From NCBI RefSeq assembly GCF_002115785.1, contig NZ_JFJY01000001.1:558001-622000 (forward strand): a stretch of 64,000 nucleotides of DNA, written 5' to 3'. Positions 4,397 through 37,833 of the stretch are shown here, piece by piece. Source of the DNA: Thalassospira sp. MCCC 1A03138 (GTDB lineage: Bacteria; Pseudomonadota; Alphaproteobacteria; Rhodospirillales; Thalassospiraceae). The first letter of the stretch is position 1. Each line of letters opens with the position of its first letter. The notes under the pieces were generated by a model, which did not search any database, had not been told where the DNA came from, and saw only the letters and a list, made by a program, of their open reading frames with translations. The translations under genes and the position numbers were made by a program.

Positions 4397-5197
4397 CTAA
4401 TCTCTCGTGACCGGAGGTATCGACCAGTCGCCGATGCGATCCTGAAACACGGACAAAGCAGCAATTGCCGCGGTTTCGGCCCGCAAGATTCGCGGACCAA
4501 GGCTTACAGGCGTTGCAAAAGGCTGTTTGCGGATGCGTTCAATTTCGTCGGCGCTAAAGCCGCCTTCGGGTCCAATCACGATTGCATGGTTAACAACATT
4601 GTCGTTGTCGATAGCCGAGCCAGCGCCCTTTGCCAATAGCTGACTTAACACTTCACCAATTGGTGAGCCCGATCCCGTCTCGTCACAGAACAGTAAATGC
4701 CGGTTTTCCGGCCAGTCTGCGAGCCAATCAAGCAATTTTACCGGTGGGGCAATTTCCGGCACGCTGAGGCGTTCGCACTGTTCGGCGGCCTCGATCACCT
4801 GAGCCTGCAGACGGTCAAGGCGCACCTTGTCGGTAATGCCATGCGCCGTCACAATCGGTTGCAAGGTACCAACCCCCATTTCAACCGACTTTTCGATCAG
4901 AAAATCAAGGCGCTGCTTTTTGATTGGCGCAAAAGCCAGGATCGGGCCGCGTTCGACAATCTGGTCACGCAATTGCCGTTCGGCAGTCACCGTGCACTTC
5001 TTTTTGCGAAGGTGGTCGATGGTCGCCAGCCATTCGCCATCAAGACCATTAAATATCTTGATTGGCGTTCCGGGCTTGAGGCGCATCACATGTTCAAGGT
5101 AATGAGACTGTTCAGGTGCGAGTTCGATCTCGCATCCCGGCGTGATAGGATCGGAAACGAATAGGCGTTGCCGGGCGCGGGTGGCGTCATCTGTCAT
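4397..5197 (-). CDS. rsmE: 16S rRNA m3U1498 methyltransferase
   Basis: A 266-residue SPOUT-class enzyme that methylates N3 of U1498 in 16S rRNA using SAM. It has an N-terminal PUA-like part, then the conserved EKSVEMGV segment, [13 protein letters not shown], and the knot-forming C-terminal [13 protein letters not shown] and [14 protein letters not shown] motifs. It is first in a likely rsmE-gshA operon and divergent from ubiA across about 60 bases. An asparagine/aspartate-rich insert near residues 190-200 (IDNDNVVNH) sits before the SAM knot and looks lineage-specific. Confidence 0.93.
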
Positions 5198-33403: not shown

Positions 33404-33437
33404 AAAAAAGACCGGGTCATGCAGCCCGGTCTTTTTT
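33404..33437. terminator. Bidirectional terminator overlapping the end of btuD
   Basis: A perfect 13-bp stem AAAAAAGACCGGG / CCCGGTCTTTTTT with an 8-base loop. It ends purD on the plus strand and, read on the minus strand, the last codons and stop of btuD lie in it. Confidence 0.88.
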
Positions 33438-34199
33438 CATGCCTGCGTGATAGCGCACCGCACATTCACCATTCGGGCCATGTTCTATGGTTGCCTCGAC
33501 ACCGAACACATCGCGCAGATTTTCCGATGTCAGAATGTCGGCAGGGCTGCCAATCCCCACCAGTTCCCCATCGCGCATCATGGCAATCCGGTCGCAATAC
33601 ATCGCGGCATGGTTCAGATCGTGCAGGGCTGCGACCACGGTAACCGGCAATTCGCGCACCAGTTCCAGTAATCCAAGCTGATGGCGGATATCCAGATGGT
33701 TTGTCGGCTCGTCCAGTAATAGGAATTTCGGTTCCTGTGCCAGCGCGCGCGCAATATGAACCCGCTGCTTCTCGCCGCCCGAAAGTGTATGCCAGAACCG
33801 GTCGGCCATATGGGTCATGTCGACATCACCAAGGGCGCGGTTAACAATCGCATCATCCCGCTCAGACCAAGGTGACAGCATGCTGAGATATGGTGTGCGC
33901 CCCAGTGCTACCGCCTCGCGCGCGGTCAGGCGGTCCGTGGTGTCGGCCTGCTGTTCGACAAAGCCGATCTGCCGGGCCAGTTTGCGACGGCCATGCTTTT
34001 TCATGTCCTGCCCTGCCAGCATCGCATGCCCCTGATCAGGTGGACGAATACCGGCCAAAACCGACATCAAACTTGTTTTGCCCGATCCGTTCGGCCCGAT
34101 CAGGCCCAGAAACTCGCCCGGTTCGACGCGCAGGGAGACATTTTTGATGATCTTGCGGAAACCGGCAGACCAGACGATATCGCGCAGTTCCAGGGTCAT
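33417..34199 (-). CDS. btuD: Cobalamin/iron-siderophore-type ABC transporter ATPase
   Basis: 260 residues from ATG 34199, overlapping the permease stop (ATGA). Walker A is GPNGSGKTSL, the signature LSGGEKQRVHIARAL and Walker B FLLLDEPTNHLD. It belongs to the FecE/BtuD/HmuV branch. The upstream cobalamin riboswitch supports a B12-type substrate, so I use btuD, but hemin or a metallophore cannot be excluded. Its last codons (MKKDRAA) fall in the terminator hairpin. Confidence 0.85.
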   Translation of the reverse strand: MTLELRDIVWSAGFRKIIKNVSLRVEPGEFLGLIGPNGSGKTSLMSVLAGIRPPDQGHAMLAGQDMKKHGRRKLARQIGFVEQQADTTDRLTAREAVALGRTPYLSMLSPWSERDDAIVNRALGDVDMTHMADRFWHTLSGGEKQRVHIARALAQEPKFLLLDEPTNHLDIRHQLGLLELVRELPVTVVAALHDLNHAAMYCDRIAMMRDGELVGIGSPADILTSENLRDVFGVEATIEHGPNGECAVRYHAGMKKDRAA

Positions 34200-35248
34200 C
34201 GCAAAATCCTTCCGTGGCACAGGATCAGGGCAAAGGCCGGCGCCCCGACAAGGGCAGTAATCACCCCGATTGGCAAAACCTGCCCCGGAACGATCACGCG
34301 TGAGATGACATCGGCACAGACCAGAAACAGTGCGCCAATCAATGCAGATAACGGCAATACCAGCCCATGGCGCGTGCCGACAAAAAAGCGCGCGGCATGC
34401 GGGATCACCAGTCCAACAAAGCCGATCGAGCCCACGATGCTGACCATCACCGCGGTCATCATTGCCGCCGCAGCAATCAGGATGGCATAAACGCGTCTGA
34501 CCGGAACACCAAGCGATGCCGCAGATTCACGGCCAAACGTAAAGGCATCAAGTGCGCGTGCATGCCAAAGACACACGACAAGCCCGACAATAGCCACAGG
34601 CAAGGCCAGCCACACATCGGGCCAGCGCACGCCGCTAAGATTGCCCAGAAGCCAGAACATGATGCCGCGCGCCTGTTCGGCACTGGCCGACTTGGTGACA
34701 ATGAAGGATGTCAGGGCGTTAAACATCTGCGACCCGGCAATCCCGGCCAGAATGATTGCCCCCGTGCCGCGCCTGGCCTGTAACGCCAGAAGGGTCACAA
34801 AGGCGAATGCCGCCACTGCGCCGATAAATGCACCAAGTGACAGTGAAAGCATCCCGGCCCCAAGACCAAGAATCACGATACTGACCGCTCCGGTCGACGC
34901 CCCGGCTGAAATGCCCAGCAGATAGGGATCGGCAAGGCTGTTGCGCAAAAGCGCCTGCAGGACCGCGCCGGAAACGGCCAAGGCCGCCCCGCAACTTGCG
35001 GCAACGATTGCGCGGCTCAGCCGATAGTTCCAGACAATACCGGCATCAATCGCATCCACCGGATGACCGGCATCCCATAAATGATTGGCAATCGTGTCGA
35101 TCACCGTACCCACCGGGATTGCTGTTTCACCCACCGATGCGGCAACCGCCAGGACCGCAGCCAGCAACATCAGCGCGGCAAATGCCACGCTGATGCGTTT
35201 TAGGAAAACGGGGCTGGAAATGACGTTACCGATCACTGGCCCGATCAC
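34196..35248 (-). CDS. btuC: FecCD-type permease of the B12-type importer
   Basis: 350 residues from GTG 35248, overlapping btuF's stop by four bases (GTGA) with GAGG upstream. About ten membrane helices are visible, with the family motifs NSLADPYLLGISAGAS and FVGLVIPHAARFFVGTRHG. It forms the inner-membrane channel for vitamin B12 or ferric-chelate uptake. It is the middle gene of btuF-btuC-btuD. Confidence 0.87.
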   Translation of the reverse strand: MIGPVIGNVISSPVFLKRISVAFAALMLLAAVLAVAASVGETAIPVGTVIDTIANHLWDAGHPVDAIDAGIVWNYRLSRAIVAASCGAALAVSGAVLQALLRNSLADPYLLGISAGASTGAVSIVILGLGAGMLSLSLGAFIGAVAAFAFVTLLALQARRGTGAIILAGIAGSQMFNALTSFIVTKSASAEQARGIMFWLLGNLSGVRWPDVWLALPVAIVGLVVCLWHARALDAFTFGRESAASLGVPVRRVYAILIAAAAMMTAVMVSIVGSIGFVGLVIPHAARFFVGTRHGLVLPLSALIGALFLVCADVISRVIVPGQVLPIGVITALVGAPAFALILCHGRILR

Positions 35249-36285
35249 TGGGTTGCCTCGAACGCCTCGATTGCCTTGGCCAGGGTTTCTATGCCCTCGA
35301 TTGTCCGCATGGTCGGGTTCATCGACTGGGCATCCATGACGACGATATTTCCGCTTTTGACCGCACTCATCTGACTGGTTACCGGATCGGATTTCAGGAA
35401 CTGCATTTTCAGTTCCCAGTCATCGGCCGGAAAACGGCGACGATCCATTTTGCCAATCGCAATGATATCGGGATTGGTTCGTGCGATGGTTTCCCACCCA
35501 ACCGTCGGCCATTCATCGTCACTGTCGATGACATTGTCGACACCAAGGATCGACATGACATAGGCTGGCGCACCTTTCTGACCGGCGACAAACGGATCAA
35601 CATCGATTTCAGCGCTGGAGAACCAGAACAAGGCCGAAATACCCTTGCCGTTGACAGCGGCGACTTTTTCACGGGCGGCTTTTTCACGGGCTTTGAAATC
35701 GGCAATCAGTTCGGCACCACGTTCCTCGACATCGAAGATTTTCGAAAGGTCATCTATCCCCTGATAGATCTGATCCATCGAAAAGGCATCGATTCGGGTT
35801 CCGTCGCCGCCCGTGGTGTTGTCCTTGCCCAAGCAATCGGCTGGCGCGGTATAGACCGGGATTGAAAGTTCGGCAAACTGGTCAATCGTTCCGACCTTGC
35901 CATTCGGGCCGATATGCCATTGGAACTGGGTTGCCACCATATCGGGTTTCTGGCCGACCACGCTTTCAAAGCTGGGATCGTTGTCTGCCAGACGCGGAAT
36001 GGTGGCGTTGACATCGCGAAACTGTTCATTTACCGGACCAATCCAAACGGCAGTTCCAACCACCCTGTCGGCCAGTCCCAGAAGATAAAGCAGTTCCGTG
36101 CTGCTTTGACCCAGCGATACGACGCGGTTCGGGGCCTGATCAAGGGTCAGAGTCCGACCGCAATTTTCCAATGTAAGCGGATATTCCGTCGCAGATGCGT
36201 ATTGCGCGAAAGAAGCCAGTCCTGCAGTAAACACCCCGACTGCAAGAACCTTTTTGTTAAGTTCGATCACTTTGCGTCCTTTCAT
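35245..36285 (-). CDS. btuF: Substrate-binding protein of the B12-type importer (Peripla_BP_2)
   Basis: 346 residues from ATG 36285, giving a signal peptide (LNKKVLAVGVFTAGLASFA..ASA). ATG 36309 is a possible longer start, and an in-frame TTG at 36375 would add 30 residues. The mature protein has the two-lobe FecB/BtuF-like order: NRVVSLGQSSTELLYLLGL, KPDMVATQFQWH, then WFSSAEIDVDPFV and DDEWPTVGWETIARTNPDII. It contains a CGRTLTL start and an ADCLGKDNTTGGDG loop. A cobalamin riboswitch and a Zur-like site lie upstream. Confidence 0.83.
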   Translation of the reverse strand: MKGRKVIELNKKVLAVGVFTAGLASFAQYASATEYPLTLENCGRTLTLDQAPNRVVSLGQSSTELLYLLGLADRVVGTAVWIGPVNEQFRDVNATIPRLADNDPSFESVVGQKPDMVATQFQWHIGPNGKVGTIDQFAELSIPVYTAPADCLGKDNTTGGDGTRIDAFSMDQIYQGIDDLSKIFDVEERGAELIADFKAREKAAREKVAAVNGKGISALFWFSSAEIDVDPFVAGQKGAPAYVMSILGVDNVIDSDDEWPTVGWETIARTNPDIIAIGKMDRRRFPADDWELKMQFLKSDPVTSQMSAVKSGNIVVMDAQSMNPTMRTIEGIETLAKAIEAFEATQ

Positions 36286-36335
36286 GGATATGCCGATCCG
36301 GGATTTCATTCCCGATCCAGCATACCAAACCAAAA

Positions 36336-36357
36336 ATGTTATGTTATAACATAACAT
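36336..36357. promoter_or_regulatory. Zur-like operator palindrome
   Basis: A perfect 22-bp palindrome, half site ATGTTATGTTA. Its core TATGTTATAACATA matches the zinc-regulator Zur operator type known from alphaproteobacteria (as I recall it). It lies 50 bases before btuF and covers the -10 of a putative local promoter. Confidence 0.6.
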
Positions 36358-36375
36358 CAAAGTTACTATGGTCAA
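36348..36375 (-). promoter_or_regulatory. Putative second promoter of btuFCD, downstream of the riboswitch
   Basis: Minus strand TTGACC (36375-36370), 16-base spacer, TATGTT (36353-36348); 5/6 and 4/6 matches to sigma70. The -10 sits inside the Zur-like palindrome, so binding would block it. A transcript from here would lack the riboswitch. Confidence 0.4.
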
Positions 36376-36507
36376 GGGACTGGCAAAGGTGCTGAAAAAT
36401 GGCGGGAAATGTCAGGGTTCGAAGGCAGGCAAAACACATTGCAACCTGCGCGAGACGGTGACATATACCGACATCCTCCGGGGCACCCCGCCCGGTCCGT
36501 CGTCGTC

Positions 36508-36679
36508 ATGTCAGCAGGTCTCCTGGCTCGCGGGTCGTTGTGTTTTCCGGCCTTCCCAGGAAACATCCCAGTGGCTTTCAGAAGGAAAACACTCACCGCC
36601 TACAGTTGCGGGGGCAGCTTCGGTTAACCGTCCAAGAGGACGGCTTCGAATTCCCTTTATCCTTATCGGATACTGACAT
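36508..36679 (-). ncRNA. Cobalamin riboswitch
   Basis: Read on the minus strand, the conserved parts appear in order: AAGGGAATTC, GCTGCCCCCGCAACTGT, GCCACTGGG, GGGAAGG and the B12 box GAGCCAGGAGACCTGC. The closing stem P1 pairs ATGTCAG near the start (36679-36673) with CTGACAT at the end (36514-36508). It lies 223 bases upstream of btuF and 68 bases after the AraC gene. Adenosyl- or other cobalamin binding should reduce downstream expression. Confidence 0.93.
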
Positions 36680-36747
36680 CAATTGGTGTCACATAGTCAT
36701 AAGGGACCGTCAAGCCAATTGCGAGTAAATCGCAATAATTACAATTT

Positions 36748-37665
36748 TCAATAGGCGTTCGCCGCCGCCGTGCCATCGCCGCCCAGCCGCCCAAGGATTG
36801 CCGAAACATCGCGCATCGGTGGTGCACCGAACATGCGGGCATACTCACGACTGAACTGTGATGCGCTTTCATAGCCGACCTCATAGGCCGCGGTCGCCGC
36901 GTCCTTCATTTCTGTCAGCATCATCTGGCGCGCCATCGTCAGGCGAAGCCGTTTCTGATACTGAAGCGGGCTCATGGAGGTTACCTGCTTGAAATGATGA
37001 TGGAAGGAAGACGGGCTCATATTTGCCTGTGCCGCAAGATCATCGACCCGAAGTGGTGCGGCAAAGTCGTCCTTCATCAGACGGATGATTTTGGAAATGC
37101 GCTGCATGTTGCTGCCACCCATTCCGATTTGTGCAATCCGGGCCCCCTGAAGGCCGCGCAACAGGCGATAATGCACTTCGCGCAGAAGCATCGGCGCCAT
37201 CACAGAAATATCGTCTTTTTCATCACAAAGGCGCAACAGACGCATCACCGCATCCAGCAAGGTATCGCTGGCATCATCGACATGAAGCCCGCAATCGCTT
37301 TCGGATGCCGATCCGATCTGAAGATCGATCTGGGTTACAAGGTCACTTAGCATCTGACCATCAAGTTCAATCGACAGACTGCGATAGGGAAGGGCTGCAC
37401 TGGCATTTGTCACACAGCCAACAATCGGCAGGTCGACCGACGCCACAAGATACTTTCCGGGCGCGTAACTGAAAACCGCCTCGCCCAGAGTGACCTCTTT
37501 GGCACCTGACGCGATAATACAAAGGCATGGCTTATAGATTGTCGGGACTTTCATCGATGGCCCGGTCGCACGATACAGGTGCATCGCACTCACCGGCGTC
37601 TGGGCAACGCCTTCTCCTTCGCAGTATTTGTCAATCAGCACAGACATCTCTTCGAACACAGGCAT
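36748..37665 (-). CDS. AraC-family regulator with AraC_N domain (YqhC-like)
   Basis: 305 residues from ATG 37665, preceded by AAAGGAG. Residues about 20-165 form the cupin-like AraC_N domain (MKVPTIYKPCLCIIASGAKE). The C-terminal two-helix-turn-helix region has PLRVDDLAAQANMSPSSFHHHF and AAYEVGYESASQFSREYARMFG. It is divergent from an SDR gene and probably controls it, as YqhC controls an oxidoreductase. A possible direct role in the downstream btu operon is not indicated. Confidence 0.9.
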   Translation of the reverse strand: MPVFEEMSVLIDKYCEGEGVAQTPVSAMHLYRATGPSMKVPTIYKPCLCIIASGAKEVTLGEAVFSYAPGKYLVASVDLPIVGCVTNASAALPYRSLSIELDGQMLSDLVTQIDLQIGSASESDCGLHVDDASDTLLDAVMRLLRLCDEKDDISVMAPMLLREVHYRLLRGLQGARIAQIGMGGSNMQRISKIIRLMKDDFAAPLRVDDLAAQANMSPSSFHHHFKQVTSMSPLQYQKRLRLTMARQMMLTEMKDAATAAYEVGYESASQFSREYARMFGAPPMRDVSAILGRLGGDGTAAANAY

Positions 37666-37833
37666 CGCCAAACTCCTTTGTTTCTCTAATATGAACTATA
37701 GCGATCCGGACTGTACTGAAAAGCGGTTTTCGTACCGTTCGGAGGAACAGGCAATTGATCAAGAGTTCTGTGTATTCATCAGATTGCTGTTTGCAATCAC
37801 ATTGAGCGCCATCAACCAAACACGGAGGATGTC

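Follow-up and report, generated by a model that had tools for sequence, protein, structure and literature searches.

A probable CbtJKL-type cobalt importer of Thalassospira with a cobalamin riboswitch and a predicted Zur operator in its leader

The closest described relative of the locus considered here is CbtJKL, an ATP-binding cassette (ABC) importer for Co(II) encoded on pSymB of Sinorhizobium meliloti under an adenosylcobalamin (AdoCbl) riboswitch (PMC7689651; this and the other papers cited were covered as passages of text). Owing to the likeness of CbtJ to BtuF, CbtJKL was at first considered a B12 importer, and its loss makes growth require 1–10 µM CoCl2 (PMC7689651). The cobalt role and the pSymB location are given likewise in PMC12239276 and PMC4207669. 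A three-gene ABC importer operon, most likely of the CbtJKL type, lies within a 64,000-nt stretch (the window) of the genome of Thalassospira sp. MCCC 1A03138 (4.56 Mb, 33 contigs). All three genes are on the minus strand – a substrate-binding protein (SBP), then a permease, then an ATPase – and the leader holds both a cobalamin riboswitch and a palindrome that is almost certainly an operator of the zinc regulator Zur.

The other relevant systems are the alphaproteobacterial Zur regulons, of which those of Sinorhizobium fredii (znuA/znuCB-zur/c06450), Caulobacter (znuGHI/znuKLM), Paracoccus (znu/azt) and Agrobacterium tumefaciens (znu/tro/zinT/yciC) were compared. They have the same operator type as Thalassospira and the same companion genes: ZigA, ZnuA, zur-znu, AztD, ZinT and DUF4198. 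The Zur targets given in the passages covered of PMC7029138, PMC4176598, PMC5387054, PMC6103462, PMC8000910, PMC12183173 and PMC2770081 include no riboswitch-linked importer. PMC5387054 does report modest induction (1.5- to 4-fold) of predicted iron/cobalamin/heme ABC transporters, for which crosstalk with Fur was suggested. Zur control of cbtJKL goes unmentioned in the literature passages covered, a set that does not include the original cbtJKL paper, and no cobalamin-riboswitch importer under Zur was found in these passages, which comprised main text without supplementary or RegPrecise tables.

The Thalassospira operon is probably a CbtJKL-type cobalt importer with two promoters, one (P1) subject to the B12 riboswitch and a second (P2) that bypasses it and is subject to Zur. 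The computed features behind this reading are the riboswitch, the identity of the operator, its conservation, the homology to a riboswitch-linked pSymB importer, and recurrence in other orders. P1, upstream of the riboswitch, would give a leader that B12 shuts off through the riboswitch and the folded platform behind it. With sufficient zinc, Zn-Zur would cover P2, the -10 element of which lies inside the operator. In zinc shortage Zur would leave, and P2 would give a short mRNA, starting at about 36341, with a leader of ca. 70 nt and no riboswitch. The importer would then be made in zinc shortage even with plentiful B12 (OR logic), the purpose most likely being to admit cobalt, and perhaps zinc too, for metalation of zinc proteins during zinc starvation. 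The reason for a zinc input may be replacement of zinc by cobalt, shared transport of the two metals, or sensing of cobalt by Zur.

The sequence-only reading of this DNA had called the operon a B12-type importer and named its genes btuF, btuC and btuD, names that the family models do not support. Scores with NCBIfam are far below the cut-offs: 34.1 for the SBP with the BtuF model (cut-off 234), 218.5 and 201.8 for the permease with two BtuC models (461 and 334), and, for the ATPase, 128 with the BtuD model (281) and 238 with a corrinoid ABC ATPase model (537). The best NCBIfam matches are EitA for the SBP (323.3, cut-off 640), EitC for the ATPase (304.9, cut-off 485) and a putative F420-0 permease, also below cut-off, for the permease; none of the three proteins has an NCBIfam equivalog. 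The importer is thus like the siderophore-type EitABC (NF052484/NF052485) in the best matches of two of its proteins, and unlike it in that both are far below cut-off. With BtuFCD it shares the fold class and control by a cobalamin riboswitch, but its proteins score well below the BtuF, BtuD and BtuC cut-offs, and no TonB receptor that was found lies near it. An AlphaFold2 model of the SBP (mean pLDDT 77.6), searched with Foldseek, matched uncharacterised periplasmic proteins first and then mostly heme and siderophore binders, with BtuF at rank 30, a result that indicates the general class alone.

A much closer match is found in S. meliloti 1021. In the examined stretch of pSymB (50000–75000), an importer with the same gene order lies at 66659–69527, and its SBP, permease and ATPase have 57%, 77% and 62% identity with those of Thalassospira. 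It sits behind a cobalamin riboswitch box, and the riboswitch of strain RRI128 scores 116 bits with Rfam. On the pSymB-type replicon of RRI128 there is just one further PF01497 protein, and its 3.6-kb locus contains no riboswitch box. Judging by the replicon, the riboswitch, the likeness to BtuF and the boxless state of that other locus, the pSymB operon appears to be cbtJKL. Identity with this operon, taken together with the reviewed Co(II) role, makes a CbtJKL-type importer the most likely assignment for the window operon. The two differ in their leaders: Thalassospira has the Zur operator and P2 between riboswitch and gene, while S. meliloti has a weaker box (17/20) upstream of the riboswitch. 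The alternative raised in the sequence-only reading, uptake of cobalt or of a metal chelate, is the closer one, and the part concerning B12 uptake is disfavored by the Btu scores.

There are four cobalamin riboswitches in the genome. Besides the one in the window, one precedes a gene for a CbtA-type cobalt transporter (Pfam), and the other two precede a cob cluster for B12 biosynthesis and mutA-mutB, both named by eye. As the targets include the cob cluster, the organism probably makes B12 itself. The riboswitch before mutA-mutB (L012 1501–1667 / L045 ~4630–4796) is weak, with 39.6 bits against a gathering threshold of 31.5; the mutA-mutB enzyme depends on B12, which is unusual for a gene under a switch by which B12 normally shuts expression off. 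A family search found no match to MetE in the genome, and a zinc-saving change from MetE to MetH was rejected as a motive here as far as that search can tell. Eight TonB receptors were found, none of them beside a cobalamin riboswitch, a Zur place or the importer.

The 22-bp palindrome ATGTTATGTTATAACATAACAT is present exactly as first described, at 36336–36357, and 0 of 100 dinucleotide shuffles of the window contain a match to it at three or fewer mismatches. The 14-bp core at 3 mismatches occurs in 39 of 100 such shuffles, and is thus not significant within one window. In the whole genome the core TATGTTATAACATA is found at five places with at most two mismatches. Since these matches (5 forward, 5 reverse) are nearly equaled by those of a reversed-pattern control (4 forward, 4 reverse), the genome count says little by itself and the gene context decides. 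The other four places are upstream of ZigA, upstream of ZnuA, between zur-znuC and hisI, and upstream of a DUF4198 gene, companions that agree with the original view that the core fits the alphaproteobacterial Zur operator. The ZigA GTPase scores 610 bits with NCBIfam (cut-off 600), and ZnuA is over its cut-off. DUF4198 is presumed here to be the COG5266 family, to which S. fredii c06450 belongs. A gel shift showed binding of Zur to the box of c06450 (PMC7029138).

The gene for Zur itself was taken to be that of a Pfam FUR protein in front of znuCB. Its best NCBIfam match is Zur at 128.6 bits, under that model's cut-off (167), and the assignment therefore depends largely on gene order. Two other Fur-family genes in the genome best match Fur (105.1, cut-off 146) and IrrA (201.7, cut-off 150). 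A Fur or Irr operator was considered and rejected, the other places of the motif being mostly at zinc genes.

In 29 genomes of the genus, the core occurs at 90 places with at most one mismatch, compared to 9 for the reversed pattern. Eighteen of these places in six relatives were read: all 15 in the five genomes with an importer lacking the box, and three of six in genome G008. Fifteen of the 18 are at zinc genes (six COG0523 GTPases, five ZnuA, one zur-znu, two AztA-like ATPases and one AztD-like protein), and the remainder are at PhoX, at an SBP_bac_5 protein and at one gene without assignment (L052). The three COG0523 GTPases tested with NCBIfam score 597–614 relative to the ZigA cut-off of 600, and the AztA-like and AztD-like proteins are under cut-off. 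Genes at L053, L059, L060, L063 and L067 were named by eye, and those at other places by family search.

Three observations from this survey stand apart. In genome G001 (L050, ~3054) the gene downstream of a Zur-type box encodes PhoX, an alkaline phosphatase (PF05787, 543 bits). PhoX is not known to need zinc, and it is possible that this is a zinc-saving isozyme under Zur. Genome G011, alone among the 29, lacks both a match to the importer SBP and the core palindrome at one mismatch or fewer. In genome G008 (L065, ~2990) a box lies upstream of an SBP_bac_5 binding protein of the peptide/nickel type, which resembles the case of pden1341 in the part of PMC5387054 covered.

The palindrome had been described as covering the -10 of a promoter downstream of the riboswitch. 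This promoter, P2 (TTGACC-N16-TATGTT, 36375–36348), agrees with the consensus at 9 of 12 positions, has a TG before the -10, and is the only sigma-70-like site that a consensus scan found in 36250–36800. Because shuffled sequence yields a mean of 0.6 sites, the scan is weak by itself and conservation must carry the claim. The SBP has a match in 28 of the 29 genus genomes, of which 27 are close orthologs (66–100% identity) and one, G025, has distant matches only; the closest named relative is Thalassospira lucentensis, at 98%, among the best 80 of 559 stretches. In 22 of the 27 orthologs the palindrome is kept with 0–2 mismatches of 22, always between riboswitch and gene. Its absence from related genomes had been named as grounds for giving up the idea, and this check did not refute it. 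The -35 element lies exactly 12 nt before the palindrome in all 22, as TTGAC in 21 and TTGAT in one (L014), a constant spacing that upholds the overlap of operator and promoter. The five orthologs with no palindrome also have no TTGAC element there, and their riboswitch is ca. 60–100 nt closer to the gene; operator and P2 therefore behave as a unit that is present or absent as a whole. Zur boxes are found at other places in the same five genomes. As the operator overlaps a promoter-like site that lies beyond the riboswitch, a transcript from P2 free of the riboswitch is likely.

The full cobalamin riboswitch first placed at 36508–36679 is matched by RF00174 with 101.7 bits over a slightly longer span, 36496–36692 on the minus strand. 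Its conserved 3' box is present in all 27 genus orthologs by a strand-aware comparison, and TTGAC stands at the -35 place of P1 in all 27 in the alignment. The consensus scan gave no promoter at this place, so P1 is put forward as an inferred promoter only. Between aptamer and P2, an alignment of 20 distinct sequences of the genus, trimmed to end at the -35, folds with an RNAalifold energy of -22.8, compared to -9.1 ± 3.2 (lowest -17.4) in 200 column shuffles, which do not keep dinucleotides. The GGAC..GUCC helix of this platform ends right before the -35 of P2, and the siting of P2 after the platform suggests a transcript without the riboswitch. An alternative long pairing downstream of the aptamer is only a prediction of folding. 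No canonical intrinsic terminator was found after the aptamer by consensus scan, and a classical terminator there was accordingly rejected. A short ORF downstream of the aptamer was seen by eye.

The association of this importer with Zur-like boxes recurs in other orders. A set of 80 importers at named loci, the best 80 of 559 confirmed stretches, includes 8 from Thalassospira and 72 from outside it. The riboswitch 3' box was detected in 79 of the 80 by regular expression, and Rfam confirmed all six that were submitted. With a generic Zur box of 20 positions, a threshold of at least 17, and 900 nt of upstream sequence, boxes were found at 33 of the 80 importers and at 27 of the 72 outside Thalassospira. 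As background, such boxes occurred in 9 of the 1234 remaining windows of 900 nt at these loci and, in shuffled sequence, in 1 of 800 (dinucleotide) and 3 of 1600 (two-mer). Boxes with 18–20 of 20 positions were also seen in other windows of L112 (-2601, +5499), L131 and L138 (both -2601), the own leaders of which are boxless. A class-wide survey gave any match in 33 of 289 genomes, with E ≤ 1e-130 in 7 of the 33.

The pattern at two or fewer mismatches has 17 places in seven rhizobial genomes, compared to 3 forward and 2 reverse for the reversed control. Sixteen of the 17 were read: five are at this importer, eight are at zinc-type genes and three are unclear (L174, L175, L178). The zinc-type genes encode ZinT (below cut-off), AztD in three cases (one over cut-off), AztC (over), ZigA in two cases (one over) and one COG0523 protein. 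The pattern misses the importer boxes at L125 and L140, which have diverged too far. A search of four genomes, two of them shared with the seven, gave six places: four at importers, one flanked by a COG0523 gene and a zinc-type ABC transporter, and one at znuA (by eye). Upstream of the riboswitch, S. meliloti 1021 has a 17/20 box and strain RRI128 has boxes of 17/20 and 16/20.

The position of the box relative to the riboswitch varies. Among 99 importers placed on a quick tree (27 genus genomes and 72 outside loci), the box stands between riboswitch and gene in 26 and upstream of the riboswitch in 23, while the other 50 lack it. The 26 consist of 22 from Thalassospira and four from an Agrobacterium-type clade (L087, L089, L098, L100), two groups that are distant from each other in the tree. 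With three states, the minimum number of changes is 15 (shuffled mean 41.4); for presence or absence it is 13, of which 9 are forced by well-supported branches. TTGAC and TACACT flank the upstream box of L106 and L111; in L083 and its kin the upstream box lies just before TTGACGG. In the Agrobacterium-type clade the box is inside the leader with no TTGAC in the preceding 35 nt. From these positions, a bypass of B12 control is possible in Thalassospira, while in most rhizobia that have the box any Zur-dependent transcript would keep the riboswitch.

Divergent upstream genes were tried as the explanation for the 23 upstream boxes and rejected on the basis of the 14 with an upstream neighbor of which the direction was read by eye – it is co-directional in 11 (L078, L083, L085, L106, L107, L111, L129, L132, L140, L143, L147) and divergent or ambiguous in three (L076, L077, L115). 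In an Ochrobactrum/Brucella group (L114, L124, L126, L128, L130, L133, L137) there is another kind of palindrome upstream of the riboswitch, CGTAA(T/C)A-N-T(A/G)TTACG, at about -440 to -505. It scores too low for the Zur threshold used, and could represent a Zur box that has diverged.

Several results weigh against a zinc-responsive cobalt importer. The palindrome is missing from 5 of the 27 genus orthologs (L022, L025, L026, L030, L031), and 47 of the 80 importers in the wider set are likewise without a box. In S. fredii CCBAU45436 the ortholog carries the riboswitch but no box. The rhizobial box is mostly upstream of the riboswitch, where the B12 veto is kept, which fits a cobalt-for-zinc purpose less well. 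A. tumefaciens B6 has a box (L087), and no such target is listed in the table of PMC6103462, which covers qRT-PCR of chosen genes, in the part of the paper covered. As for the substrate, the fold class of the SBP usually binds chelates, and the nearest solved structures are uncharacterised proteins or binders of heme, siderophores or B12. The pSymB operon was taken to be cbtJKL from replicon, riboswitch and BtuF-like SBP, in a record without gene names there. In favor of a cobalt-for-zinc purpose, 2–20 µM CoCl2 let znuA mutants of S. fredii grow again on M9 plates to which no zinc had been added, so cobalt can replace zinc in this organism; 20 µM CoCl2 also slowed the wild type, however, and the nodulation defect of a zinc-uptake mutant was not restored by cobalt (passages of PMC7029138).

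Other explanations differ in what the importer carries or in how Zur acts. It is possible, though doubtful, that the importer is a dual-metal carrier that takes zinc itself or a zinc/cobalt chelate, in which case Zur would be ordinary zinc-uptake control and the riboswitch would serve the cobalt side. The companion genes of the motif are mostly for zinc uptake and handling, the SBP is of a chelate-binding class, and the siderophore-type EitA and EitC are the best NCBIfam matches of SBP and ATPase, all of which would suit such a carrier. CbtJKL, however, was defined through a cobalt requirement (PMC7689651), and the recurring neighbors that can be named are pseudoazurin and a methyltransferase rather than genes for metallophore synthesis. 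A true B12 importer with BtuFCD function, for which zinc shortage would raise the demand for ready-made B12, seems quite improbable. The B12 riboswitch in the leader, a distant sequence resemblance between the SBP and 5ysc, a B12-binding protein of Vibrio cholerae (E 5.6e-7), and the lack of a MetE match, by which methionine synthesis is probably B12-dependent, point in its direction. The genome, on the other hand, has a cob cluster (by eye) behind another riboswitch, none of its four cobalamin riboswitches is beside any of the eight TonB receptors found, and the closest described relative is a cobalt importer (PMC7689651).

Zur could also act differently from repression of P2 by zinc. That Co(II)-loaded Zur represses the importer, as a protein feedback beside the riboswitch, is unlikely. 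Excess Co(II) did repress S. fredii znuA and c06450 in a Zur-dependent manner (PMC7029138), and the passages of PMC7689651 say that no protein cobalt sensor of a cobalt importer has been identified so far. The authors of PMC7029138 nonetheless explain their effect as mismetalation at inhibitory cobalt, with zinc the stronger repressor, and the companion genes of the operator in Thalassospira are zinc genes. There is also little probability that Zur is a road-block to read-through from P1 and P2 no real promoter, an AND logic in which the importer would require both low B12 and low zinc. The operator does lie within the P1 transcript, and the box of the Agrobacterium-type clade lies in the leader, where the 35 nt ahead of it contain no TTGAC. 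A road-block in Thalassospira is countered by the -35 element, which keeps its 12-nt distance exactly in every box-bearing ortholog and is missing together with the box from the other five. A cobalt importer with a riboswitch on P1 and Zur on P2 is the preferred reading.

A tentative wider interpretation, held with less than even confidence, is that alphaproteobacteria use cobalt as an emergency substitute for zinc, and that the Zur input has been repeatedly re-plugged around the B12 riboswitch. If this is true, the downstream promoter of Thalassospira bypasses the B12 veto, the leader operator of the Agrobacterium type may act as a road-block, and the upstream box of many rhizobia, S. meliloti included, keeps the veto – OR and AND forms, provided by nature, of a single gate with two signals. 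Such natural variants would combine a protein operator with a riboswitch as a bypass, as a block or in series. Two regulons that are separate in the literature passages covered, zinc starvation (Zur) and cobalt/B12 (riboswitch), would be joined, and zinc shortage is predicted to alter cobalt uptake. This would give a testable genetic basis for the replacement of zinc by cobalt, relevant to the sea and to root nodules. Cobalt uptake tied to zinc shortage has a parallel in Staphylococcus aureus: Opp1/Cnt, going by the title of a 2013 paper of Remy in the reference list of PMC11236759, imports nickel and cobalt in zinc-depleted cells. Opp1/Cnt is of a different transporter class and is not known to have a B12 riboswitch. 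Should Zur respond to Co(II) in the cell as well, it would represent a protein sensor that controls a cobalt importer, of which none had been identified according to the passages of PMC7689651.

The features of the window operon are collected in the table. The SBP gene has a GTG start at 36270 with AAAGGA upstream of it, and the aligned start is kept in the box-bearing relatives.

Table. Features of the importer operon and its leader, with positions in the window.
Feature	Position	Strand	Evidence
TTGACG element directly upstream of aptamer, presumptive -35 of P1	36708..36713	-	read in sequence
Cobalamin riboswitch aptamer (RF00174)	36496..36692	-	Rfam cmscan 101.7 bits, gathering 31.5, model 1-189
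Structured RNA between aptamer and P2 (putative expression platform)	36376..36495	-	RNAalifold
-35 of putative P2 (TTGACC)	36370..36375	-	consensus scan
-10 of putative P2 (TATGTT), within palindrome	36348..36353	-	consensus scan
22-bp palindrome, predicted Zur operator	36336..36357	.	exact match and genome contexts
Substrate-binding protein (SBP), CbtJ-like	35245..36270	-	PF01497 123 bits; 57% identity to S. meliloti 1021 pSymB SBP
FecCD-type permease, CbtK-like	34196..35248	-	PF01032 287.8 bits; 77% identity/304 aa to pSymB permease
ATPase, CbtL-like	33417..34199	-	PF00005 130.3 bits; 62% identity/260 aa to pSymB ATPase
Terminator-like hairpin and T run around ATPase stop codon	33404..33437	-	read by eye

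Directly upstream of the riboswitch, and in the same direction, is a gene for an AraC-type regulator (PF06719 and HTH_18; 36748–37671, minus strand). Many rhizobial operons seem to continue downstream of the ATPase (L078, L106, L111, L139, L147, L215). Among the clusters of downstream ORFs, pseudoazurin is found at 37 of the 80 loci (TIGR02375 over cut-off in L106) and a SAM methyltransferase at 28 of the 80.

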